64,000 nt of DNA, from contig JALOTZ010000001.1 of NCBI GenBank assembly GCA_025457615.1, positions 62,001 to 126,000 of the forward strand, written 5' to 3'. The notes under the pieces were generated by a model. That model saw nothing but the letters and a program-made list of their open reading frames with translations, was not told the DNA's origin and ran no database searches. Source of the stretch: Verrucomicrobiota bacterium (GTDB taxonomy: Bacteria > Verrucomicrobiota > Verrucomicrobiia > Limisphaerales > DSYF01). The number at the start of each line of letters is the position of its first letter. The first letter of the stretch is position 1. A program made the translations under genes and the position numbers. This document shows, piece by piece, positions 76-63,346 of this stretch.

Positions 76-2217
76 CTATTTCATCGCCACCGGCGGATTC
101 GTCGGCGCCTGCTTGATGTCGGTTCCCAGCCGCTGCAGATAGGCGATCAGCGCGACGATCTCCCGGTCCGCCGGCGCGTTGGTGATCATGCCCACCGCCA
201 GATTGGCCACCACCTGCTTCGACTGCGCCTCGAGGCTGGCCTGCGCCGTGGCGATTTGCTCGTCGGTGTAGGGCACCCCCGTCCGGCGCAACGCCCCCAT
301 CCGCGGACGAAGGACCGAGGTGTCCAGCTTCTGGCTCAACAGCCAGGGGTACGCCGGCATGATCGAGCCCGGCGAGGTCGAGCGCGGATCCTCCATGTGA
401 TTGTAGTGCCACGCATCCGGATACTTGCCGCCCACCCGGTGCAGGTCGGGCCCGGTGCGCTTCGATCCCCACAGGAACGGGTGATCATAGATATACTCGC
501 CCACCTTCGAGTATTCGCCGTAGCGCTCGGTTTCGGAGCGGAAGGGCCGGATCATCTGCGAGTGGCAGCCCACACAGCCTTCGCGGATGTAGAGGTCGCG
601 CCCCAGCACTTCGAGCGGGGTGTAGGGCTTGACGCTGGCGATGGTCGGCACGTTCTCCTTGACGAGGTAAAGGGGCACGATCTCCACCAGGCCGCCAATC
701 ACCACGGCAATCAGGCTCAGAACCGTGAAGGTGACGGGCACGCCTTCCAGCCAGCGATGCCCCAGCTTGGGCGATTCCTTCCGGGCCAGGTCCAAGGCGG
801 GAGCCTGGGCTTCCTGGTCGCCGATGAACTGCCCGCTCTGGGCGGTCTTGTAGAGGTTGATCATCATCAGGACAATGCCCAGCACATAGAGGCTGCCACC
901 GATGGCGCGCAGTTGATACATCGGGACCAACCGCACCACCGTCTCGAGGAAGTTCGGGTAACGCAGGAATCCGTCCTCGGTGAACTCCTTCCACATCAGC
1001 CCCTGCGTCACGCCGCTGGTGTACATCGGCACCACATAGAACATCATCCCCAGCAGCCCGACCCAGAAGTGGTAGTTGGCCAGCTTGACCGACCACAGCT
1101 TCGTGTTCCACAGGCGCGGGAACAGCCAGTAAAGCAGCGAGAAGGTCAGGAAGCCGTTCCAACCCAGGGCCCCGGTGTGCACGTGGGCGATGGTCCAGTC
1201 CGTGTAATGCGAGAGCGCATTGACGCTCTTGACCGCCAGCGTCGGCCCCTCGAGCGTGGCCATGCCGTAGGCGGTGACCGCCACGACCATGAACTTGAGC
1301 ATGGGTTCCTGCCGCACCTTGTCCCAGGCGCCGCGCAGGGTCAGCAACCCGTTCAACATGCCGCCCCAACTCGGCGCGATGAGCATCACGCTGAACGCCA
1401 TGCCCAGGGACTGCGCCCAGTTGGGCAGCGCGGTGTAAAGCAGGTGGTGCGGCCCGGCCCAGATGTAAACGAAGATCAGCGCCCAGAAATGAATGATGGA
1501 GAGCCGGTAGCTGAACACGGGGCGGTTCGCGGCCTTGGGCAGGAAATAATACATCAACCCCAGGTAGGGCGTGGTCAGGAAGAACGCCACCGCGTTGTGC
1601 CCGTACCACCACTGGACCAATGCATCCTGCACGCCCGCATACACCGAGTAGCTCTTGAACAGGCTCGCGGGAATGGCCAGGGAATTGAAGATGTGCAGCA
1701 TGGCCACCGTCACCGCCGTCGCGATGTAGAACCAGATGGCCACATACATGTGCTTCTCGCGGCGCTTCAGGATGGTGCCCAACAGGTTCACCGTGAACGC
1801 CACCCAGACCACCGCGATGGCCATGTCGATGGGCCACTCGAGTTCCGCGTATTCCTTGCTGGTGCTCAACCCCAGCGGCAGCGTCACCGCCGCCGCCACG
1901 ATGATGGCGTTCCACCCCCAGAAGTTGAACCAGCTCAGGGCGTCGCTATACATGCGCGCCTTGCACAGGCGCTGCAGCGAATAGTAGATGCCCATGAACA
2001 TGCCGTTGCCCACGAACGCGAAAATGACGGCGTTGGTGTGCAGCGGACGGATGCGCCCGAAGGTGGTGAACGGGGTGTCGAGGTTGAGTGCCGGCCAGAA
2101 CAACTGGCAGGCGGCCAACAGCCCCGCCGCCGTCCCCACCAGCGCCCACAAGGCCGTGGCGATGGCAAAAGCCCGGACAATCCGGTTGTCGTATTTGAAG
2201 GTTTCGATGTTGTTCAT
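76..2217 (-). CDS. ccoNO: cbb3-type cytochrome c oxidase, fused subunits I and II (CcoN-CcoO)
   Basis: Terminal oxidase of the cytoplasmic membrane that reduces O2 with electrons from c-type cytochromes and pumps protons. The 713 residues hold both subunits. Residues 1-460 are the twelve-helix CcoN part, with the low-spin haem ligand H60 (RPLHTN), CuB ligands H207 (WYGHN) and H257/H258 (GPHH), and the haem histidines in HVHTG (H345, H347). Residues 490-713 are the CcoO part, with one TM helix and a c-type haem site CVGCH at 548-552. Fusion of the two is known in several phyla. It overlaps ccoS by ATGA and precedes a third small subunit, so translation is coupled. No frameshift or missing ligand is seen. 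Confidence 0.97.
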   Translation of the reverse strand: MNNIETFKYDNRIVRAFAIATALWALVGTAAGLLAACQLFWPALNLDTPFTTFGRIRPLHTNAVIFAFVGNGMFMGIYYSLQRLCKARMYSDALSWFNFWGWNAIIVAAAVTLPLGLSTSKEYAELEWPIDMAIAVVWVAFTVNLLGTILKRREKHMYVAIWFYIATAVTVAMLHIFNSLAIPASLFKSYSVYAGVQDALVQWWYGHNAVAFFLTTPYLGLMYYFLPKAANRPVFSYRLSIIHFWALIFVYIWAGPHHLLYTALPNWAQSLGMAFSVMLIAPSWGGMLNGLLTLRGAWDKVRQEPMLKFMVVAVTAYGMATLEGPTLAVKSVNALSHYTDWTIAHVHTGALGWNGFLTFSLLYWLFPRLWNTKLWSVKLANYHFWVGLLGMMFYVVPMYTSGVTQGLMWKEFTEDGFLRYPNFLETVVRLVPMYQLRAIGGSLYVLGIVLMMINLYKTAQSGQFIGDQEAQAPALDLARKESPKLGHRWLEGVPVTFTVLSLIAVVIGGLVEIVPLYLVKENVPTIASVKPYTPLEVLGRDLYIREGCVGCHSQMIRPFRSETERYGEYSKVGEYIYDHPFLWGSKRTGPDLHRVGGKYPDAWHYNHMEDPRSTSPGSIMPAYPWLLSQKLDTSVLRPRMGALRRTGVPYTDEQIATAQASLEAQSKQVVANLAVGMITNAPADREIVALIAYLQRLGTDIKQAPTNPPVAMK

Positions 2218-2405
2218 GGGTTGTTCAGCAGTGATTGGTGAGCGGAAGGGGGCCGGGTCGCATGACCCGCCTCCTCCGTGAGGATGCGCATCGCGGGCGT
2301 GTCGGTGTCCTCATACTGGCCGGAACGCACGGACCACACATACGCAATGAGGAAAATCAAGGCCAGCAACAAGCTGACCGGAAGCATGAGATAGATCGCG
2401 GTCAT
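2214..2405 (-). CDS. ccoS: cbb3 oxidase assembly protein CcoS
   Basis: A 63-residue single-span membrane protein (MTAIYLMLPVSLLLALIF, then WSVRSGQYED). It matches the CcoS family, which is needed to insert haem and copper cofactors into CcoN. The open frame extends further upstream, but the ATG at 2405 was chosen because it overlaps the ccoI stop in ATGA and gives the standard CcoS N-terminus. Its own stop overlaps the ccoNO start in the same way. The C-terminal tail after the RILTEE segment is low in conservation, as is usual. Confidence 0.93.
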   Translation of the reverse strand: MTAIYLMLPVSLLLALIFLIAYVWSVRSGQYEDTDTPAMRILTEEAGHATRPPSAHQSLLNNP

Positions 2406-52104: not shown

Positions 52105-52716
52105 CTACTGCACCGCCTTGAGCTCGACGGCGGACCAGGGTTGGGTGCGGCCTTTGGTGGCGTTACGGGTCGCGGTGACCTGCTCGGTCGTCACCGGTGG
52201 AGCCTGGTTGCCCCAGGCGTTGCGCATGTAGGTGAGCACGGCAGCCAGATCCTCGTCCGGCAAGGCTGCGCCCATGGCCGGCATGGCCAGATTCCATTCC
52301 TGCCCCTTCACCGTGATCGGTCCGGCCAAACCCTGGAGCGGAATGCGAATCAACTGGCCGACATTGTCCGTCAGAACCCACTCGGACCCCACAAAGGTGG
52401 GGGCCTGGCCGGGTTTGCCGGCGCCATCCACGCCGTGGCAGAGGGCGCACACTTGTTCATACACCACCTTGCCGCGGATCAGCAGGCGGTCGCCGCCGGT
52501 GGAAGGTTGCAACGACTCGATCTGTTTGAGCGAGGTGAACGGCGCGTGGACGACCGGGTTGAACCAGGCCGCAGTCCAGTCGAAATAAAGCGCCCCCCCG
52601 AAGAACAGCAGGATTGGCAACACCATCAGCCACATCGGCACCGGCGCCGTCCCCACCGGCGGCTCGGTGTCCCGGCCGGAGCTGGCAGCGAAGCTGGAGG
52701 CGGTGGAATCGTTCAT
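52105..52716 (-). CDS. CcoP-like membrane-anchored cytochrome c
   Basis: 203 residues. One N-terminal TM helix (PMWLMVLPILLFFGGALYFD) anchors a c-type haem domain with CALCH at 90-94, KVVYEQVCALCHGVDGAGKPG, and the axial Met in LAMPAMGAALPDEDLAAVLTYMR. It is the last gene of the ten-gene operon, overlapping the CcoO-like gene by four bases, so it is likely the periplasmic electron-transfer part of that module. Confidence 0.9.
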   Translation of the reverse strand: MNDSTASSFAASSGRDTEPPVGTAPVPMWLMVLPILLFFGGALYFDWTAAWFNPVVHAPFTSLKQIESLQPSTGGDRLLIRGKVVYEQVCALCHGVDGAGKPGQAPTFVGSEWVLTDNVGQLIRIPLQGLAGPITVKGQEWNLAMPAMGAALPDEDLAAVLTYMRNAWGNQAPPVTTEQVTATRNATKGRTQPWSAVELKAVQ

Positions 52717-53594
52717 GGAACCGGTGTCGCGTTGGTCGCGGAAGCCACAGGAACCGCTGCCGGGGCGGGCGCGGAAAACGGCGCCTCGAAGAGCGGCACG
52801 TCCGTCTTCAAACTGAGCAGGTAAGCCACCAGCGCCTTTGCCTCGCCTGTGGGCACGATCTCAAAACCGGGCTCGGGCGCCAGATCGCCTTCCAGGACCA
52901 GAGCGTCCGGGGACGGGGTCTGACGAATCTTGCGCTTCTCGAACAGGAACCGGTAAGGCGGCATGCTGGATCGCTCCACCACCTTGTCCGGCGCATAAAG
53001 ATGTTTCAGATGCCACACCGGGTCCGGCTGGCGCACGCCAATGTTCGCCAGGTCCGGTCCGAGGCGTTGCCACCCCAGCAGAATCGGCTGGTCCTGCAAG
53101 TAATCCCTCGCCACCGACCCGCGCTGTCCCCAGCCGCGCTTGATGTCGCTCCCCGTCGCCCGGATGCGAATCATCGCCTTGGCCCCGGCATCCTCCAAGG
53201 TCTTCTGGGCAAAGTCCGCGCGGCTCTTGTCCACATCCACGAGCAAGTCCCGGGGCAGTCCCACCAGGGGGTTGTCGGCCAGGCTCAGGTCCAGCAGCTT
53301 GAACGCGGAAAGCACCTGGGCCTGGTTCGTGCCGGCGCTGGCCAGGATTACATCCATTGCCGCCCCCTCCTGCCGGACCTGACGGCTGTGACAATGGTAA
53401 CAACCGTTGGCGCGATACACCTGCGCCCCCTGCGCCGCCAAACCGGGCCGGGGCTGGGGATACAAGTCCGATCCACCCGTCACCATCCCCAAGCTGGCGC
53501 GTCCGATCTGGAGTTGGGGCACCAGGATGAAGCCCGCCCAGGAGGCGGACAGCGCGACGAACCCGGTCAGGAACAGCATTCCGGCGTGCTTCAT
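52713..53594 (-). CDS. CcoO-like monohaem cytochrome c subunit
   Basis: 293 residues. An N-terminal helix (GMLFLTGFVALSASWAGFI) anchors a CcoO-type domain with haem site CYHCH at 65-69 (YRANGCYHCHSRQVR), LGPDLANIGVRQPDPVWHLKHL and SSMPPYRFLF, whose Met211 would be the sixth ligand. These segments parallel the CcoO half of the ccoNO fusion at 76-2217. It lies between the ligand-free CcoN-like gene and the CcoP-like cytochrome, each overlap four bases. Confidence 0.92.
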   Translation of the reverse strand: MKHAGMLFLTGFVALSASWAGFILVPQLQIGRASLGMVTGGSDLYPQPRPGLAAQGAQVYRANGCYHCHSRQVRQEGAAMDVILASAGTNQAQVLSAFKLLDLSLADNPLVGLPRDLLVDVDKSRADFAQKTLEDAGAKAMIRIRATGSDIKRGWGQRGSVARDYLQDQPILLGWQRLGPDLANIGVRQPDPVWHLKHLYAPDKVVERSSMPPYRFLFEKRKIRQTPSPDALVLEGDLAPEPGFEIVPTGEAKALVAYLLSLKTDVPLFEAPFSAPAPAAVPVASATNATPVP

Positions 53595-55048
53595 GCCGGG
53601 CCCTCCGATGCCGCGGGGACGCCGCCAGGTTCATCAATGACCTGCCGAATCTGCGCCCGGACCAACCGGAGCACCAGGACCAGGACGTTCACGGGGAGCA
53701 ACAGGTGTCCGAGGATGAGCAGCAACTGGCCCATGGACGCGACCCGGATGGGCATGAGCGTTCCAGCCGCCACGTCCACAAAGGGGATCCGAGCATCGGC
53801 CAGCCGGGTTCCCTGTTGGAATCCGCCCACGAGCAGGGGCACGACCACGAGCACGAGGCCGATGGAGGCCAGCCAGAAATGAATCCGCGCCAAGGCCGGG
53901 AACGGCAATGACGCACCGGCGATGCGCGGAAGTATCAGGTAAATCGCGCCCAGCAGCACCATGGTGCCGAAGCCCTGCACAAGCCATTGGAACAGGGCCG
54001 GCTGGACCAGGGTCAACGCGGCGGTCTTCCACAAGGCCGTGCTGTTCAGCACCACCACCAGCACGGTCCAAAGCACCCAGGCGCGGATCCCGAACCGCAG
54101 GCAGCGGGAGGGCTCCATCCCCGGCGCGGAACCGACCGGGCAGAGGCTCCGGAGGTTGAGCAGGACCGCCAGCATTGGCATCAGCAGGCAGACCGACATC
54201 ACCCGGCTGATGGCCGTCATCCACGCGGGCACCGGGGCCTGCAACGGCACACCGGTCCAGGGACCGCAAAGGATGAGCGTGATCAAAGCGAACAGGGCAA
54301 GGTGCCGGCTCGGAAGCGCCTTCTGTTTGAGCACCGGGAAGAAGTAGAACCCAACAGCGATCCCAAAGAGGGCCAGCAACACCACCTGCAGTTGAGCCAG
54401 GGCCCACCCATGCACGGCTCCCTGCGCCATTCCCCGAACCGGCCAGAGTTGCAACAAGCCCATCGCGGTCGCGTAGATCCAGGGAAACCAGAGCAGGCTG
54501 AGACCGGCAAACCATTGAGCCGGATGCAGCTCGGGCACGGCCCGGCATCGGATCGTGTTCAGGCCCGAAACGCCCACCAGCACGGACGCCAGGAGCAACA
54601 GCCAGCCGGCGTAGAGCGGGAACTCGAAGTGCTCGAATCCGCTGGCATCCCCCGCGAGAAGTCCGATCGTTCCCACCAGGATCCCGAGGTTCCAGGCCTT
54701 CGCGCCCAGGATCACCAACGCAGGCTGCGCCAATGGCGTTCGACCGAGTCGCGCCAGGATCCACAGCGCTGCCGCCCAACCTGCCGGGATGCAAAACCCG
54801 TAAAGCAGGAGGTGGTTGGCTACTGGCGCCATCCGCCCGTAGCTCAACCAGGCGTAATCGGCGAACAGGGCGGGCGCGTGGAAGCTCATCGACGCCACCA
54901 GGTAAACCACGGCGGAAAGCGCCAGCCAGAACGCCGCCCCCGGATAGAGCCCCAGCAAGGGCCAGCGACAGGACCGGTCGATTCCAGTGGCTGGAAGGTC
55001 AGCGGCTGACTCCGGAGCAGAGGGAGCGGATTGGAGAGACGGACTCAT
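53591..55048 (-). CDS. CcoN-like membrane protein lacking all haem/copper ligands
   Basis: 485 residues with about twelve hydrophobic helices laid out as in oxidase subunit I. It aligns with the CcoN part of ccoNO without gaps at YGRMAPVANHLLLYGF (FGRIRPLHTNAVIFAF in ccoNO). The low-spin haem His is Ala77, the first CuB His is Ala218, and the GPHH pair is GPWT (264-265). The haem His pair of HVHTG maps to about 352-354 (LFQ). There is no His at all from 250 to about 388, so copper and haem cannot be bound there. It is encoded in frame without stops and kept in an operon with intact cytochromes. A structural or electron-conduit role is likely; oxidase activity is not. Confidence 0.85.
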   Translation of the reverse strand: MSPSLQSAPSAPESAADLPATGIDRSCRWPLLGLYPGAAFWLALSAVVYLVASMSFHAPALFADYAWLSYGRMAPVANHLLLYGFCIPAGWAAALWILARLGRTPLAQPALVILGAKAWNLGILVGTIGLLAGDASGFEHFEFPLYAGWLLLLASVLVGVSGLNTIRCRAVPELHPAQWFAGLSLLWFPWIYATAMGLLQLWPVRGMAQGAVHGWALAQLQVVLLALFGIAVGFYFFPVLKQKALPSRHLALFALITLILCGPWTGVPLQAPVPAWMTAISRVMSVCLLMPMLAVLLNLRSLCPVGSAPGMEPSRCLRFGIRAWVLWTVLVVVLNSTALWKTAALTLVQPALFQWLVQGFGTMVLLGAIYLILPRIAGASLPFPALARIHFWLASIGLVLVVVPLLVGGFQQGTRLADARIPFVDVAAGTLMPIRVASMGQLLLILGHLLLPVNVLVLVLRLVRAQIRQVIDEPGGVPAASEGPA

Positions 55049-55060
55049 CCGGGGCGTGGC

Positions 55061-55444
55061 CTACTCGAATTCGCTGGGCTTGGCCGGCGGCGGCGGGGGC
55101 ACGAAGGTGGCCGCTTCGACCCGGTTCGACAGCTCCGCCCGGGCCTGGGCGGGATTCTGCCAGGCGGCGGCCGTCAATTCCACAGCCCGGTCCAAAGGCA
55201 GGCGCACGATCCCCTTGGCTTGGTCCACCCAGCCGTAGGAACCGAGGGCGGCCTGTTCGGCGGCGCGCAGTTCGGCGAGGTTGGCTGCGCGCAACGCCGC
55301 CCGCTCCGCGGTGAGCGACGGCGGGGTCGTGTAATGCTTCATGGCCCAGACCAGGGCGGCCACGATGAGCAAGGCGGCCACAGCCACCAGCGAGGTCAAG
55401 CCGCCCCTCACGCCGCGGCCGGTGGTTTCGTTCCCGCAACTCAT
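55061..55444 (-). CDS. Small membrane-anchored protein of the ACIII operon
   Basis: 127 residues. One N-terminal TM helix (LTSLVAVAALLIVAALVWAM) and a periplasmic tail with an Ala-rich helix and the segment LGSYGWVDQAKGIVRLPLDR, ending with a Pro-rich stretch (FVPPPPPAK). Proteins with this WVD.AKGIVR.P..RA segment are encoded next to cytochrome oxidase and SCO genes in several phyla, as far as I recall. Here it overlaps actF by four bases and precedes the CcoN-like gene by 12. No cofactor site. A role in assembly or docking is inferred. Confidence 0.75.
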   Translation of the reverse strand: MSCGNETTGRGVRGGLTSLVAVAALLIVAALVWAMKHYTTPPSLTAERAALRAANLAELRAAEQAALGSYGWVDQAKGIVRLPLDRAVELTAAAWQNPAQARAELSNRVEAATFVPPPPPAKPSEFE

Positions 55445-56727
55445 TGTCGGCCTCCTTCCGCTTCCGGCGGGCTGTCCACAAAGTAATCCGCTTCATCGAT
55501 GTCCCCGCCGGAGATGGGCGTCGCCACCGGATGCGAGAGCCCCATCGCCTCGATCAATCGCGGATCCTTGAGCGGGTACGGCGCCGCGCTGCGGTATTTC
55601 CTGAGGAACAGCTTGGCCAGCAGCCCGACCATGAAGGCGGTGCACCCGGCGTCCAGCCACATCCAACGCACCGGGTACCCCTCGGGATGCAGCGCGGGCA
55701 TGATGTTGAACGAGAGATCGAAGTAGTGCATGGCCCAGGCCCAGGCGACCAGCGGCGCCATGACCAGCGGGGTGCTTTTGGCATCGATGCGCAGCAGGGC
55801 GAGGAATGGCAGGAAGAAATGGCCGAAGATGAGGATCAGGCTGATCCAGAACCACGTTCCCTGCTCGCGGATCCAGTACCAGAAAGTCTCCTCCGGGATA
55901 TTCGCGTTCCAGATGATGAAATACTGGGAGAAGGTCACATAGGCGTAGAACACCGTGAACGCGAAGAAGAGCGTTCCCAGGTAATAATACTGGTGGTTGT
56001 GGAGCACGGGGGACAGCACCCGCTGCCGGTCCAGCAGGGCCATGATCATGTAGGCACTCACCAGGGTCAGCCAGACGCTGCCCGCGAAGTACCACACCCC
56101 GTACATCGTCGAGAACCACTGGTGCTGCAGCGCCTTCATCCACATCACCGCGGCGAGCGTGGTGGTGATGGCGAACAGGAAGATGCCCCAGTAGGAATAG
56201 AGCCGCATCTTGAAGGTGCACCGGGCCTCGCCCGTCTTGTCCTGCTCGATGGACCAGCGCAGCAGCCCCCGGCTCAACACCCACCAGACGACGAAGTTGA
56301 ACACCGCCACCAGGTAGAACCCGGTCGTGGTGAACAGCGGCAGCTTGGCGTGCACGGCATGGTCGGTGTGCGGATCGTTCTGCATCCAGCCATAGAGATG
56401 CTTCGGCGCCAGGAGCGCGATGGGGATAAACAGCACGGCCATCCAGGGCGACAACAGCGTGGCCATGTGCTCGAGGAACCGCCGCTGCGGCACCGACCAG
56501 CCGGCGTCGAAGAGGTGATGCACCAGCACCAGGAACAGGGCTCCCACCCCCAGGCTCAGGCAGAACATGAAACCCAGCAGCCATGAGTGGGCGAATTGGT
56601 CGAGGTTCACCAGCGCCCCGGCGACGGCGAGCAGACCGCCGCCCACCAGCAGGATATTGGGCACCTTGCGCCAGCCCGAGAGATCGAGCGGCGGCGGCAG
56701 TTGGGCGCGTTGCTTGAGATCGCTCAT
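55441..56727 (-). CDS. actF: Alternative complex III subunit ActF (NrfD-like)
   Basis: 428 residues, about ten TM helices of the NrfD/PsrC type, the second quinone-related membrane subunit of ACIII. Segments such as GWSVPQRRFLEHMATLLSPW, RGLLRWSIEQDKTG and WVWREQGTWFW-like (WIREQGTWFWISLILIFGHFFLPF) are typical. It lies three bases after actE and overlaps the next small gene by four. Confidence 0.93.
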   Translation of the reverse strand: MSDLKQRAQLPPPLDLSGWRKVPNILLVGGGLLAVAGALVNLDQFAHSWLLGFMFCLSLGVGALFLVLVHHLFDAGWSVPQRRFLEHMATLLSPWMAVLFIPIALLAPKHLYGWMQNDPHTDHAVHAKLPLFTTTGFYLVAVFNFVVWWVLSRGLLRWSIEQDKTGEARCTFKMRLYSYWGIFLFAITTTLAAVMWMKALQHQWFSTMYGVWYFAGSVWLTLVSAYMIMALLDRQRVLSPVLHNHQYYYLGTLFFAFTVFYAYVTFSQYFIIWNANIPEETFWYWIREQGTWFWISLILIFGHFFLPFLALLRIDAKSTPLVMAPLVAWAWAMHYFDLSFNIMPALHPEGYPVRWMWLDAGCTAFMVGLLAKLFLRKYRSAAPYPLKDPRLIEAMGLSHPVATPISGGDIDEADYFVDSPPEAEGGRQ

Positions 56728-56730
56728 ACG

Positions 56731-57375
56731 CTATTTCCTCAGGGCCGCCTGGGCGGAGGCCGGCACATCCTCGGGGGTGCCCAACCGGGCCAATTGCAGG
56801 GCGCGCACGTAAGCCACCACCGCCCACCGATCCGGCACATCAATCTGGCCCGCGTAACCCTGCATCAAACCCTTGCCGTAGGAGAGGGTGTTGAAAATCT
56901 CGCCGTCCGGCATCTGCACCATCCGCTTGTCGTGCAGGTTGCCGATCACGGCCATGCCATACTTCCTGGTGATGCCGTTGCCGTCGCCCAGGGCACCGTG
57001 GCATGGAGCGCAGTTGATCGTGTAGCGCTCCCGGCCGCGTTCCAGAAGCCGCAGATCCACGGTCATCGGGTTCAAATCCACGAAGTTGGTCTTGCCCGGG
57101 AGCCGTCCGGTGTTGACCGCCGCGTCCTCGTAAGGGAACACGGGGCCGGCGGCGGTCTGGAGGGGGGTGCTGCGGGCGATGGTGCCCGGCACCGGCATCT
57201 GCGAGCTGCGTCCGTTGGCAAAGAACCCGTTGGGCGTCTGCGGCCGCAGCTTGAGCTGGCGATCCATGTCCGGAAACACCTCGATCGGGGTGCGCCGGCT
57301 CAGGCTGCCGCGAAACCCGGCGATGGCCACCACGAGCACCACGACCACAGCCAGGAGGGTCAGAAAAATGCGCAT
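56731..57375 (-). CDS. actE: Alternative complex III monohaem cytochrome ActE
   Basis: 214 residues. A signal anchor (RIFLTLLAVVVVLVVAIAG) and one c-type haem domain (YTINCAPCHGALGDGNG, axial Met in MVQMPDGEIFNTLSYGKGLMQGYAGQI). In ACIII ActE accepts electrons from ActA. It overlaps actD by one base. Confidence 0.94.
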   Translation of the reverse strand: MRIFLTLLAVVVVLVVAIAGFRGSLSRRTPIEVFPDMDRQLKLRPQTPNGFFANGRSSQMPVPGTIARSTPLQTAAGPVFPYEDAAVNTGRLPGKTNFVDLNPMTVDLRLLERGRERYTINCAPCHGALGDGNGITRKYGMAVIGNLHDKRMVQMPDGEIFNTLSYGKGLMQGYAGQIDVPDRWAVVAYVRALQLARLGTPEDVPASAQAALRK

Positions 57376-57905
57376 TATTCCTCCACCAGTTCGATGCGCG
57401 GGCTGCCGGTGGACTCCAGCAACTTGCGGGTTTCGGCCTCGTCGTACCTGGGATCCGCCGTCTCGATCACCAGGAAGAACTTGTCATGCGTCACCAGCTC
57501 GAAGCGCTTGTGCTTGAGCAGGGGATGATGCAGGCGCGGCAGGCGGTTCAGAATCAGCATGCCCCCCAACGCCCCAAAAGCGCCCAGCAGGATGGTCAGC
57601 TCGTACGACGGCGGGAAGGCCGAGAAGGGGCTGAACATCGGTTTGCCGCCAATCAATATGGGGTAATCGAACCGGTTCATGAACCAGATCATCAGCATGC
57701 CGGTCGTGTAACCGGTCACGCCCCCGAGGAACGAGAACCAGCCCACCTTCGAATTCTTCAGCCCCATGGCCTTGTCCATCCCGTGCACCGGGAAGGGGGT
57801 GAAGACGTCCCACTTGCGAAACCCGGCGTCGCGCACCTTCTCGGCCGCGTGCATGGCGCCGGCGGGGGTGTCAAACTCGGCGATGATGCCGTAAGCCGTG
57901 CTCAT
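57375..57905 (-). CDS. actD: Alternative complex III subunit ActD (DUF3341)
   Basis: 176 residues, a DUF3341 protein with two TM helices ([34 protein letters not shown]) and the start [25 protein letters not shown]. ActD holds the membrane part of ACIII together. It overlaps actC by ATGA and actE by one base. Confidence 0.94.
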
Positions 57906-59338
57906 CCGTGATGTCCTCCGTGTCTGGCTCCCCCCAGCGGATGATGCGGATCCGCCTGCGGCGTCACGCCTTTGACCTCCGAGATGGCGATCACCGGCAG
58001 GAACCGCATGAAGAGGAGGAAGAAGGTGAAAAACAGTCCGAACGTGCCCAGATATGTCATCACGTCAATCAGGGTCGGCTTGTAAACCGCCCAGTTCGAC
58101 GGCAGGAAGTCGCGGTGCAGCGAGGTGACCACGATCTCGAACCGCTCGAACCACATCCCCACGTTCACCAGGATCGAGATGACGAACACCACCAGCAGGT
58201 TTTCGCGGATCTTCCGGAACCAGAACAACTGCGGGATCACCACGTTGCAGCCGATCATCGTCCAGTACCCCCACCAGTAGGGGCCAAACGCGCGGTTGTA
58301 GAAGGCGAATTGCTCGTAGGGCGACCCGCTGTACCAGGCGATGAACACCTCCATGCCGTAGGCGTAGCCCACGATCGATCCGGTGGCCAGCGTCACCTTG
58401 CACATCAAATCCACGTGCCGGATCGTGATGATGTCCTCCAACCCGCAGATCTTGCGGATCGGAATCAACAAGGTCAGCACCATGCCAAACCCGGAGAAGA
58501 TCGCCCCGGCGACGAAGTAGGGCGGGAAGATCGTGGTGTGCCAGCCGGGAAGCTGCGACACCGCGAAGTCCAGGGACACGATCGAGTGCACGGACAACAC
58601 CAGCGGCGTGCTCAACCCGGCCAGGATCAGATACGCCTTCTCGTAGTTGCTCCAGTGCCGGTTCGAGCCGGTCCAGCCCAGCGAGAACAGCCCGTAGGCG
58701 AACTGCTTGATCTTCGTCTTCGCCCGGTCCCGCAGCACGGCCAGGTCGGGGATCAAGCCCATGTACCAGAACAGCAGGGACACGGTGAAGTAGGTGGACA
58801 CCGCGAACACGTCCCACATCAGCGGCGAGCGGAACTGGGGCCAGATGCCGTTGGCGTTGGGAATGGGGAACAGCCACCAGGCAAACCACACGCGGCCGAC
58901 GTGGATCACGGGGTAGATGCCGGCGCACATGACCGCGAAGATCGTCATGGCCTCGGCCGCGCGGTTGACCGCCGTGCGCCATTTCTGCCGCAGCAGGAAC
59001 AGGATCGCGGAGATCAGCGTGCCCGCGTGGCCGATGCCGATCCACCAGACGAAATTGATGATCGGCCACCCCCACATGACCGGGTGGCAGTTGCCCCACA
59101 CCCCCACGCCCGTGGAGATCTGGTAGGCGATCATCCCGAAACAGGTGGACATCATCCCGACACTGATGACGAACGCCACCCACCACCACGCCGGCGTGGG
59201 CCCTTCGTTGATCGCGCAAATGCGGTCGGAAATCCAGCCAATCGGCCGGTGGTTCCGCACCAGGGGCGCCCGCTCGAGCTCCTTCGGAACGGAAGGCGCC
59301 GATAGGGATCCGGAGAGGACTGTCGCGTCAGCCGCCAT
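57902..59338 (-). CDS. actC: Alternative complex III subunit ActC (NrfD-like quinol subunit)
   Basis: 478 residues with about ten TM helices of the polysulfide-reductase NrfD fold. It carries [36 protein letters not shown] and [33 protein letters not shown], typical of the menaquinol-oxidising subunit. It overlaps actB by one base and actD by four. Confidence 0.95.
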
Positions 59339-62300
59339 CAGTGGCCTCCTTTCTCCGCCCCGTGCGGAACGGCTGCGGCGGCCCCGTGCGGCGCGCTTCC
59401 ATGGGATTCAAAGGGACTGCCCATCTTGGATTCGTATTCTTCGAGGCTCAGGGGGGACGGGCGGTAGTCGGGCATGGCCGGGTTCGGATTGCGCACCTTG
59501 GCCAGGTAGGTGAGCCGCGGCTTGGTGAGCAGGAACTCGAGCACGCTGTAATCGCGCGCCTGGCGCTTGAGCTTCGACACCCGGCTGTCCGGATCGGCCA
59601 CGTTGCCAAACACAATTGCCCCCGCCGGACACGCCTGCTGGCAGGCGGTCTGAATGGTTCCGTCCGGCACCACCACGTCTCCGGACGCCCCCGCCTTGAC
59701 TTTCTGCGCGATCTTGGCGGACTCGATGCGCTGGAGGCAGAACGTGCACTTCTCCATCACGCCGCGCATGCGCACCGTGACCTCGGGATTCTTCACCAGC
59801 TTGAGGAGTTCCCACTCGTCCTCGGGCCGCCGCCCGAACGGCCCTTTGTAGAGCTGATCGATCGGACGCTTGTTGTAATCGAAGAAATTGAAGCGGCGAA
59901 CCTTGTACGGGCAGTTGTTCGAGCAATAGCGGGTGCCGACGCAACGGTTGTAAATCATCACGTTGAGCCCCTCGTGATCGTGCGCGGTGGCGTTGACCGG
60001 GCACACGCTCTCGCAGGGGGCGGCTTCGCAGTGCTGGCACATCATCGGCTGCGTCACCACCTGCACGTCGTCAATCCACGCCTCGAACTGCTGCTCGCTC
60101 TCCGGCGCCAGGATGGCCTGGTCCGGAATGCCGCGGTCGTTGTCGCGGCCGGCGAACTGCTCCTTGTCGGTGGTGTAGTAACGGTCCAGGCGCAACCAGT
60201 GCATCTCGCGTCCGCGCGCCACCTGCTCCTTGCCCACAATCGGGATGTTGTTCTCGCTCTGGCAGGCGACCACGCAGGTCGAACAACCCACGCAGGCGTT
60301 CAGGTCCACCGACATGCCCCATTGATGATGCGCCGACCGCGCGGCCTCATCGAGCGGGTTGGGATAGATCGGCGCCGGCCACTCGGGCGCGCCCTCCGGA
60401 CGCGGCGGCTCGTGCAGTTTCATGCCGGACGCGAAATCCGGATGCTCGTTGAACTGCGCGAGGTTGGCCTCCCGGATGATCGGGCGGCCCTCCATGGACC
60501 AGTGTTCCTGCGGACAGGAAAGGCTGTAGGTGCGCCCCGTGCGGGTGACCTTGGCCCCGAGCGCGATGTGGGCGCCAGCCGAGGTCCGCACCGCGTAGGC
60601 GTTGTAACCGGTCCCCTGCCCGACGCGTCCCGACTTGCGGCGCCCGTAGCCCAGGGTCAACCCCAAAACGTGATCGGCCTGGCCGGGCTGGATCCAGATG
60701 GGCCCCTCGACGGAGTGGTCGCCCAACTGGATGGTCACCACGTCCTGGTTCTGACAGCCAAGCGCGCGGGCGGTCTTCCGGCTGACCAGGACCGCATTGT
60801 CCCAGGTGAGCTTGGTGATCGGGTCGGGCAATTCCTGCAACCAACCGTTGTTGTTGTAGCGGCCGTCGTCCAGGCTGTAATCCCGGCGGAAAACCACTTC
60901 CAGCGTGTCCGCGCCGGCCCGGCTCCCATCCGCCGTCGCCACCAGCGACCGGACCTTGCCGGCATTGAGGCTCACGTTCACGGGCTGAACCGTCGAGCCC
61001 GCCAGGAAGCCGTCGTGCAGAAACTTGCGCCAGGCGCCCTCGGCGTCCCCGCCTTGCACCAGCCCGGCAAACGTCTCGCGCACCACATCGTACGCCGACG
61101 CCGCGCCCAACCCGGCGAGCCGGGCCAGCACATCGAGTTCGGAAATGCCCCCAAACAGCGGCGCCATCAAGGGCTGGATGGGCACCAGGGTCCCGTCCGC
61201 CGTGCGCGCGTCGCCCCAGGTTTCGAGGTAATGCGCCATGGGCAGGTGCCACGTCACGCCCGCGGCGGATTCATCCTCGTAGTAGCCCAACCGGACCACC
61301 GTCCTGGCCTGGCGCACCGCCTCGGTCCACTTCACCTGGACCGGCGCCGTGTAGGCCGGGTTGCCCCCGAGAATGATCAGGGTGTCAATCAGCCCGGCGT
61401 TGAGCGCCCCGCCCAACTCCTCGACCGACCCAATCCCCTGCGGCGTGGCCGGATGGTATTCAACGGTCCGCCCCGCCCCGCCCAGCGTGTGGGTGATGGC
61501 ATGAGCCAGGGCATGGACTGCCAGGGGTTGCCCGAGTCCGGCCACCACCAGGACCTGCCCGGCGTGCGCCTTCAAATCGTTCGCGCATTCCTCGATCCAA
61601 CGGGGATCCACACCCTCGGCCAGCGCCTCCCCCACCGGGATGCCCACCGCCGCGGCCAGCGCCCTGGCCACGCCCAGGACCGCGCTGCTGGGGAGCCGCA
61701 GCCGATGATCGGCGTTGGCGCCGGTCAGCGTCATCAGGCTCTCGACCACATACAGGCGGTTCATCGTGTCGCCCGGCTTCTCGACGCGGCGACCCTGCGT
61801 GAACCGGCGGATGTGAGTGTGGGCGTCCTCCTCGGTGCCCATGAAATCGCAGTCGAGCGAAAGCACCACCCGGGCGGCGTCAAACTTGTAACGAGGCTGA
61901 ACCGGCTGGCCGAACACCTCGGAAGCCGCCAGCCGATGCATGTCAAACCCGACCGGCTCATGCTCATACCAGCGGGCCCGGGCCATCCGCCCGCGCAACA
62001 TTCCCTGCAAACGCTGGCGTGAAGGGCAGTTGCCCCGCTCCATCAGGAACGCCAGACCCTCGCCCTGGTTGGCCAGAAAGCGCGTCCCCGTCTGCGTGAG
62101 AAAGTCCAGGGCCGCCTCCGGCGCGACATTGTTGCCCCCGCGGGTGAAACGCTGCGCCCGATCCGGATCATACAGGTCCAAAATGGACGCCTGTGCAAAA
62201 CGGTCCGTCCCCCCGCTGCTGTCCGGATGCAGGGGGTTGCCCTCGACCTTGATTGGACGTCCGTCGTGGGATTTCACCACCAACGGGAGGGCGCCACCCC

Positions 62301-62610
62301 GGGTGGGCATGGCGGTCGCATAGTACTGAGCCCGGCCATGCACATAGCCTTCCGGCTGCTGCGCAAAAGGCTCAAGCTTGAACTCGGGCCGCCGGCATCC
62401 GGTCAGGCCCAGCCCCGCCAACGCGAACGAGGCGGACATGATCTTGACGAAGTGCCGCCGCGACACCGGGTCCGTGAACTCGCTGGCGCCGGACGGAAAC
62501 TCGCGCTCGAGCCACTGCCGGAACTCGGGGGTGTCGGCCACCTGATCCAGGCTGCGCCAGTAGGTGCGGCCCATCTCCGGTTCCGGACAAGCAGGAGGAA
62601 TCGTCTTCAT
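59338..62610 (-). CDS. actB: Alternative complex III large Fe-S subunit ActB
   Basis: 1090 residues. An N-terminal segment [20 protein letters not shown] carries a Tat-like signal. A molybdopterin-oxidoreductase-like region without cofactor is followed by a ferredoxin-like part with four cysteine groups ([45 protein letters not shown] and [12 protein letters not shown]), as in ActB with three 4Fe-4S clusters and one 3Fe-4S cluster. It is the core periplasmic electron relay between quinol and the haem subunits. It overlaps actA by ATGA. Confidence 0.96.
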
Positions 62611-63275
62611 CGGTGGCAGGCAGAGCAGTGTTGCAGGGATTCAACCTTCCAGTCGTGCACGAACTTCTGCCCGTTGGCCCGCTGCAATTCGGCATTCTGC
62701 CGGGGATCCGCGCTCCACTGCCAGGTCAGGTCCGTCACCTTGTCCGGCGGACGGATGAACGCCGCCGGATCCCGGTGACACTCGAGGCAAAACGCCATCG
62801 AGAGGGGCTTGGCGTGGTACACCTCGTCCATCACGTTGATCTGCCCGTGGCAATGCACGCAACTGATCCCCCGATTCACGTGGACCGAGTGGTTGAAATA
62901 CACGTAGTCCGGGGTGCGATGAATCTGGACCCAGGGGATCGGCTTGCCCGTGGCGGCGCTCTGGCGGACCAAGGCCAGCCGGGGATCGTCCTTGAGCACC
63001 TGGCTGTGGCAGTTCATGCACGTGCCGGACGCGGGCAGGTTGGAAAACCAGGACTTCTCGACGGCACTGTGGCAGTAGCGGCAATCCATCCCCAACTGGT
63101 CCACATGGATCGCGTGCGAAAACGCCACCGGCTGCACCGGCTGATAGCCGACGCGCGCGTACTTCGGCGTAAAATAATACCAGACCCCCGCCGTCACCCC
63201 GGTGCCGATCAAAATCAAGCCCGCGAGCATCAACAGCGGCAGCCGGTTGGTCCACTTGGGAAAAATGGCCGACAT
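62607..63275 (-). CDS. actA: Alternative complex III pentahaem cytochrome ActA
   Basis: 222 residues. A TM anchor (LPLLMLAGLILIGTGVTAGV) precedes a periplasmic domain with five CxxCH sites: CRYCH, CMNCH, CVHCH, CLECH and CSACH. ActA takes electrons from ActB and hands them to ActE or an external acceptor. The ATG at 63275 was chosen; TTG at 63284 is not needed. It is the first gene of the operon. Confidence 0.96.
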   Translation of the reverse strand: MSAIFPKWTNRLPLLMLAGLILIGTGVTAGVWYYFTPKYARVGYQPVQPVAFSHAIHVDQLGMDCRYCHSAVEKSWFSNLPASGTCMNCHSQVLKDDPRLALVRQSAATGKPIPWVQIHRTPDYVYFNHSVHVNRGISCVHCHGQINVMDEVYHAKPLSMAFCLECHRDPAAFIRPPDKVTDLTWQWSADPRQNAELQRANGQKFVHDWKVESLQHCSACHR

Positions 63276-63346
63276 GTGAATCAAAAACGGTCAGACCGAC
63301 ACGAATTCTGATTGACCCCCTCACACACCCGTCAGGAGGCGCGCTG

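Follow-up and report, generated by a model that had tools for sequence, protein, structure and literature searches.

The presence of haem-copper oxidase subunit I is read as a sign of aerobic respiration, and the cbb3 type is taken to signal a high affinity for oxygen. In cbb3 oxidases this subunit is CcoN, whose ligands in Pseudomonas stutzeri are H60 and H349 for haem b, H347 for haem b3, and H207, H257 and H258 for CuB. The closest described systems on the quinol-oxidizing side are the ACIII complexes of Rhodothermus marinus and Flavobacterium johnsoniae, in which a c-haem domain, part of either ActA or oxidase subunit II, connects ACIII to the oxidase (PMC5928083, PMC8552683). Their ActABCDEF core is shared with the operon described here, and oxidase genes often lie downstream of it; in both species, however, the oxidase follows ACIII directly and a CcoN-like subunit, which our operon possesses, is absent. 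ACIII itself offers a likeness to what is proposed below, as the molybdoenzyme-like domain of ActB (CISM family) is also a fold of catalytic origin that now serves within a respiratory complex.

A haem-copper oxidase subunit I that lacks all of its ligands is not known to have been described, and the open papers searched contain none, though subscription journals may. The initial annotation of the locus, which recognised no described system of this make-up, stands with regard to ligand loss in the open literature and fails with regard to gene arrangement: ACIII genes beside a C-type oxidase have already been published, as a working oxidase, for verrucomicrobial methanotrophs and Opitutaceae (PMC8498564, PMC6688271, PMC11102522). 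The gene set is named a cbb3-type oxidase in four papers (PMC6688271, PMC8498564, PMC10205796, PMC11102522), and it belongs to the same operon family as the one analysed here.

The CcoN-like subunit and its operon

The window is the whole stretch of DNA that was analysed, 64,000 nucleotides from a Verrucomicrobiota bacterium. Its operon runs from 63284 down to 52105 on the minus strand in the order ActA-B-C-D-E-F-small protein-N-O-cytochrome, where N is the CcoN-like and O the CcoO-like subunit (Table 1). The ActA-F set is complete, with ActC, ActD and ActE recognised by Pfam, ActA by its five CxxCH motifs, and ActB and ActF by gene order and conservation. The small protein is possibly ActG-like. 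Four-base ATGA overlaps join N to O, O to the cytochrome and ActF to the small-protein gene; the overlaps described earlier are real on the downstream side of N, and on its upstream side the small-protein gene is separated from it by 12 bases. No CcoG, CcoH, CcoI or CcoS gene was seen within the window operon. The intact CcoN-CcoO fusion in the window, together with an aa3-type subunit I and a cytochrome bd encoded elsewhere in the source genome, indicates that the organism has other oxidases. Two further contigs of this genome (C15, C95) carry open reading frames of 516-517 aa (L084:436-1986; L085) whose match to the COX1 profile is confined to the C-terminal portion of that profile; in L084 this match occurs twice.

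Table 1. Features of the ACIII operon, the comparison gene and the fused chains (window positions unless a locus is given)
Feature	Position	Strand	Remarks
Cytochrome c, membrane-anchored, mono-haem, CcoP position	52105..52716	minus	Pfam Cytochrom_C E 3.7e-11; overlaps CcoO-like gene by 4 bases
CcoO-like mono-haem c subunit (O)	52713..53594	minus	CYHCH, SSMPPYRF; Pfam FixO E 2.1e-21; 4-base overlap with N
L7/L12 C-terminal-domain-like insert in O, aa 77-147	53154..53366	minus	Pfam PF00542 E 5.7e-4
CcoN-like subunit (N)	53591..55048	minus	485 aa, 12 TM helices; six haem/Cu ligands and active-site Tyr all gone
Small one-TM protein	55061..55444	minus	127 aa; no Pfam/NCBIfam family; present in most orthologous operons
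ActF	55441..56727	minus	by operon position; no Pfam/NCBIfam match
ActE, mono-haem cytochrome c	56731..57375	minus	Pfam
ActD	57375..57905	minus	Pfam ActD E 6e-66
ActC (NrfD family)	57902..59338	minus	Pfam NrfD E 1.2e-23
ActB	59338..62610	minus	1090 aa; read from sequence and operon order
ActA, pentahaem cytochrome	62607..63284	minus	five CxxCH
Intact CcoN-CcoO fusion	79..2310	minus	744-aa open frame; all six His and Tyr; comparison gene
Fused N-O-cytochrome c chain after ACIII	L191:6629-8944		f59/g60 genome
Fused N-O-cytochrome c chain after ACIII	L198:6793-9117		f59/g60 genome

The coordinates first assigned to N were right, and its strand is minus. The description of about twelve helices in the CcoN layout is borne out by the helix count and by a structural model of CcoN type. 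Matches to Pfam COX1 (E 2.8e-17) and NCBIfam TIGR00780 ccoN (E 2.1e-18) extend over nearly the full length, and the closest sequence matches with a solved structure are cbb3 CcoN proteins. The AlphaFold model, for which 47 orthologues served as input, has a pLDDT of 93 and a pTM of 0.92; Foldseek ranks CcoN first against it (3mk7, 9g6b and 8smr, with TM scores by query length of 0.83-0.85), followed by NO reductase and other oxidases. With the CcoN of P. stutzeri (3mk7) the protein shares the 12-helix fold (TM 0.83-0.87), about 21% identity and adjoining CcoO-like and CcoP-position cytochromes, but it differs in lacking the haem and copper ligands and the active-site Tyr and in being attached to an ACIII operon.

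Alignment confirmed the previously noted Ala77 at the low-spin haem His and Ala218 at a CuB His, and it places P268/L269 at the CuB His pair. The pair corresponding to HVHTG is non-His, as had been stated, with Leu352 and Gln354 aligned to haem b3 H347 and haem b H349. The reading of GPHH as GPWT is correct as to the loss of ligands, but it lies a few residues out of register: GPWTGVP and WAGPHH align at their W. The active-site Tyr of helix VII, six residues ahead of the CuB His pair, is also missing. Histidines occur only at positions 57, 79, 140, 175, 213, 249, 390 and 448, so that the region from 250 to 389 has none (250 to about 388 in the initial annotation). Since this region is free of His and intact orthologues align in register, a misalignment masking the ligands was rejected. 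The protein is therefore a CcoN by fold and sequence kinship that lacks the His ligands and the Tyr of CcoN and scores far below its equivalog cut-off (66.5 bits against 583, the intact ACIII-linked form being below it as well at 238). Judged from the residues present, a ligand-free CcoN cannot fill the annotated oxidase role at that site, and haem b, haem b3 and CuB are presumably absent from it.

Loss of the ligands across Verrucomicrobiae

Sampling covered the class and the phylum with one genome per species, many of them metagenome bins. A first search of relatives matched 52 of 58 genomes, a few of which have only a true CcoN or fragments. In total, 122 distinct ACIII-linked CcoN orthologues were found in Verrucomicrobiae, so the gene set does recur in other genomes; operon order was constant among the sampled orthologues and N kept its position in about 120 genomes. 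One locus in the collection (L038) is a short metagenome contig labelled Phycisphaerales. We refer to ACIII-linked sequences with 0-3 ligand His as the lost form and to those with 5-6 as the intact form, with the caveat that for the most divergent sequences the assignment of ligand columns varies with the alignment. The lost form accounts for 93 of the 122 and the intact form for 29 (six His in 28, five in one); as 93 orthologues have the loss in common, it is not a chance event. The active-site Tyr follows the same division, being present in 29/29 intact sequences, in 0/93 lost ones and in 8/8 CcoN proteins without ACIII linkage. Its presence in every intact orthologue argues for an oxygen reductase and against the idea that these are NO reductases.

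Intermediate states also exist. The sequence with five ligands (L092:1423-2937), in which one CuB His is replaced by Arg, is possibly an early step of ligand loss. The low-spin haem b pair alone (HNQRYH) is kept in three f65 genomes (L101, L108, L110), and the CuB triad alone (AHHHxK) in L031, L033 and L050. Ligand loss is thus piecemeal. The series from full site through low-spin pair only, CuB triad only and nothing to the fused chains described below is a rare record of an enzyme turning into a structural part. The replacements seen in the window recur residue for residue in a same-genus orthologue of 65% identity; in most lost sequences, no one residue takes the place of the His.

A tree that omits the ligand columns and is rooted on CcoN without ACIII linkage groups 92 of the lost sequences together, while the remaining one (L120) nests among the intact ones, so the ligands disappeared twice or more. 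When the tree was built from 40 rows, the f65 sequences joined the intact ones; their placement is unsure, and a third loss is probable on this basis. Forcing the keepers of the CuB pair together was rejected (AU test on 40 rows, p 2.6e-49), which means that the CuB site disappeared repeatedly or, less likely, was regained. Branches in the lost group are long, and its monophyly may be partly due to long-branch attraction. Orthologues with histidines had been named as a possible refutation of a repurposed subunit; such sequences do exist, but because the root lies on intact CcoN these 29 represent the ancestral state rather than a regain. On this reading the ancestor of the window protein was a C-type oxidase linked to ACIII, and those 29 sampled relatives still carry it with an intact site.

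The lost form remains under selection. Pairwise dN/dS of lost N sequences (Nei-Gojobori) is 0.06-0.23, with 0.23 for the window against L041, and falls among the values for ActE, ActF, O and the cytochrome. Measured against the divergence of ActF, however, N changes in the lost group at about double the rate seen in the intact one (1.38 versus 0.68). Low dN/dS combined with a doubled N/ActF ratio indicates that N is constrained, but less so than an active oxidase, and that part of the signal is relaxed constraint. No internal stop was found in the matched frame of the 93 lost copies, and dN/dS is not near 1. Sequencing error or decay was rejected for the window gene on the stop-free frame, the low dN/dS and the identical residues of its same-genus orthologue. 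Strongly conserved residues number 14/181 on the periplasmic side, 10/119 in the membrane core and 3/153 on the cytoplasmic side; the periplasmic bias is modest (p 0.02) and common to the membrane core.

The c-haem partners of N are also retained. Wherever O was found it keeps CxxCH, in 87/87 lost and 32/32 intact loci. Purifying selection, the maintained operon position and these intact partners uphold the earlier proposal that the gene is repurposed rather than decaying. A long insert after the haem motif of O occurs in 24/83 lost loci and 0/32 intact ones (p 0.0002 with kinship ignored, the inserts being confined to the order of the window and its neighbours). The copy in the window folds like the C-terminal domain of ribosomal L7/L12 (Foldseek TM 0.82 to 1ctf, 34% identity), and PF00542 is matched in orthologous O subunits with a best E of 5.8e-15. 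An L7/L12-type insert thus sits in a periplasmic c-type cytochrome in the window, in L041-L049 and in others, and the O subunit of L049 apparently has two copies in tandem.

Other oxidases, fused chains and the proposed role of N

A further COX1-family match was found in all lost-form genomes except G018, G043 and G049, with only a fragment in G017. Of these three, G018 and G043 encode cytochrome bd at full length, and G049 is 82% complete. The intact form is the sole haem-copper oxidase, with cytochrome bd absent, in G064 and G261 (98-99% complete), and it is the only COX1 match in G060 and G038. Since many intact genomes carry further oxidases, the association between loss and another oxidase is one-sided, and oxidase replacement is too simple as the cause of each loss. 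In several families, genes for aa3-type oxidases adjoin the operon: COX1 comes directly after the cytochrome c gene in Methylacidiphilaceae (L134, L139), COX2 lies between the two in L143 and L151, and COX2/COX1 are downstream in other families. An aa3 COX1 is also found downstream of the intact form (L156). The ACIII genes of outgroup classes, and those of G067 and G075, precede what looks like a caa3 set, judged by protein size, helix number and CxxCH, and N is absent there. Other lineages (L195-L197) lead from ACIII straight to caa3 with no such subunit, so ACIII does not as a rule require the N-O-cytochrome arm.

In nine f59/g60 genomes, of a genus that is probably Akkermansia, the N domain is followed by the O and cytochrome haem motifs within one chain of 772-775 aa, read directly in two of them and recognised by full-length search matches in the rest. 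The fused N domain aligns with the family by hhalign (probability 94, E 1.5e-7), and its dN/dS is about 0.34 (one pair). No COX1-family gene was found in the ten f59/g60 genomes searched, all 99-100% complete. In G007, an 8-helix protein of no recognisable family (L193:7408-8517) occupies the place of N ahead of O and cytochrome c. G007 has no haem-copper oxidase either, and in genomes of this kind the arm cannot be connecting ACIII to one.

We consider it moderately probable that N is a pseudo-oxidase, serving as a membrane platform for cytochromes that draw electrons from ACIII. This is in line with the scaffold between ACIII and cytochromes suggested in the initial annotation, which fits best among the roles considered. 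The points in favour are the constant operon, the retained haem c of O, selection, the CcoN fold, the conservation bias, the adjacent aa3 genes, the fusion, the presence of another terminal oxidase in nearly all lost-form genomes as against the intact form standing alone in G064 and G261, and the c-haem bridge of R. marinus and F. johnsoniae as a precedent. Against it count the f59/g60 and G007 genomes that lack a haem-copper oxidase, the modest size of the conservation bias, the relaxed constraint on N and the lineages in which ACIII does without N. N would press the CcoO-like and CcoP-position cytochromes against ACIII, and these two would form its electron-exit arm, with electrons passing from menaquinol through the FeS clusters of ActB and the haems of ActA and ActE to the two c haems. 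The final acceptor would be separate, either the aa3-type oxidase of the same cluster (in several families) or oxidases encoded elsewhere, and a non-oxidase where haem-copper oxidases are missing. A retired oxidase would in this way carry the bridge from ACIII to its acceptor. Gene order, translational coupling and fusion are what connects N with ACIII, of which it may be a stable part.

Other functions would fit some of these observations. N might bind a cofactor or quinone through other residues, such as non-homologous haem ligands or menaquinone in the emptied pocket, and so join in transmembrane electron transfer; relatives with only the low-spin pair or the CuB triad suggest that partial sites can be stable, and His79 of the window lies two residues from a lost ligand. 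This is rather unlikely, however, given that His79 is unconserved (N, D, L and S are commoner there), that the window protein has no His between 250 and 389, and that most lost sequences replace the ligands variably (A, S, Q, G, F, W, Y; N, Q, A, S, G and others). The proton paths of haem-copper oxidase folds would suit a role for N within ACIII in energy coupling rather than cytochrome docking, whether it conducts ions or protons or simply faces the lipid. Yet the only D/E/K/R/H residues in the middle third of the window helices are Lys117, Arg322 and His448, and none occupies a position of this third conserved at >=85%, which leaves such a function little likelihood.

N might also help to assemble a different terminal oxidase, or the c cytochromes, as a chaperone or assembly factor; the other oxidase found in nearly all lost-form genomes speaks for this. 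It would then not be a stable subunit, though, and translational coupling to O and the cytochrome, together with single-chain fusion in genomes lacking a haem-copper oxidase, suggests that N is one; we think a role in assembly improbable. That N is a decaying relic kept merely by its operon location agrees with its faster divergence than its neighbours and with the erratic replacement of ligands. It is largely refuted by 93 stop-free lost copies, dN/dS of 0.06-0.23, a confident CcoN fold and common conserved residues, and is very unlikely. Extending the platform reading, we give an even chance to the broader view that in most Verrucomicrobiae ACIII forms a distinct respiratory complex with ligand-free N, O and cytochrome c, where the former oxidase would be the electron-exit arm even without a haem-copper oxidase (as in the probable Akkermansia), and that the methanotroph cbb3 is the same complex and would reduce no O2.

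The gene set in verrucomicrobial methanotrophs

Ten f63 genomes carry pmoA, which within this class we take to mark Methylacidiphilaceae, and all ten have the lost form. The published methanotroph cbb3 is presented as a working oxidase, but subunit I in these genomes retains no more than one ligand of the six (SESHFV or ADAHQx), and with such a sequence it cannot bind the cbb3 cofactors. A hidden true cbb3 was rejected, because a profile search of Methylacidiphilaceae for a second CcoN, which scores true CcoN elsewhere at about 1e-60, matched the lost form only. Loss of the metal site across a bacterial class means that such oxidase annotations can be false; papers on Methylacidiphilum credit growth at low oxygen partly to this gene set. 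Culturable relatives with either form exist, which makes the proposal testable.

In L139:631-12480, nosZ-family genes, the small protein, N, O, the cytochrome, aa3 COX1 and COX3 are consecutive. This order, with nos genes directly upstream of small protein-N-O-cytochrome-aa3, agrees with the nos-ACIII-cbb3-aa3 cluster reported from Methylacidiphilum caldifontis IT6 (PMC11102522). N is absent from G063, which belongs to another genus of f63. Methylacidithermus pantelleriae has been singled out as being without the full oxidase set (PMC8498564), and G063 may belong to its genus. Two COX1 homologues of 465-467 aa (L174, L175) look like NorB by motif.
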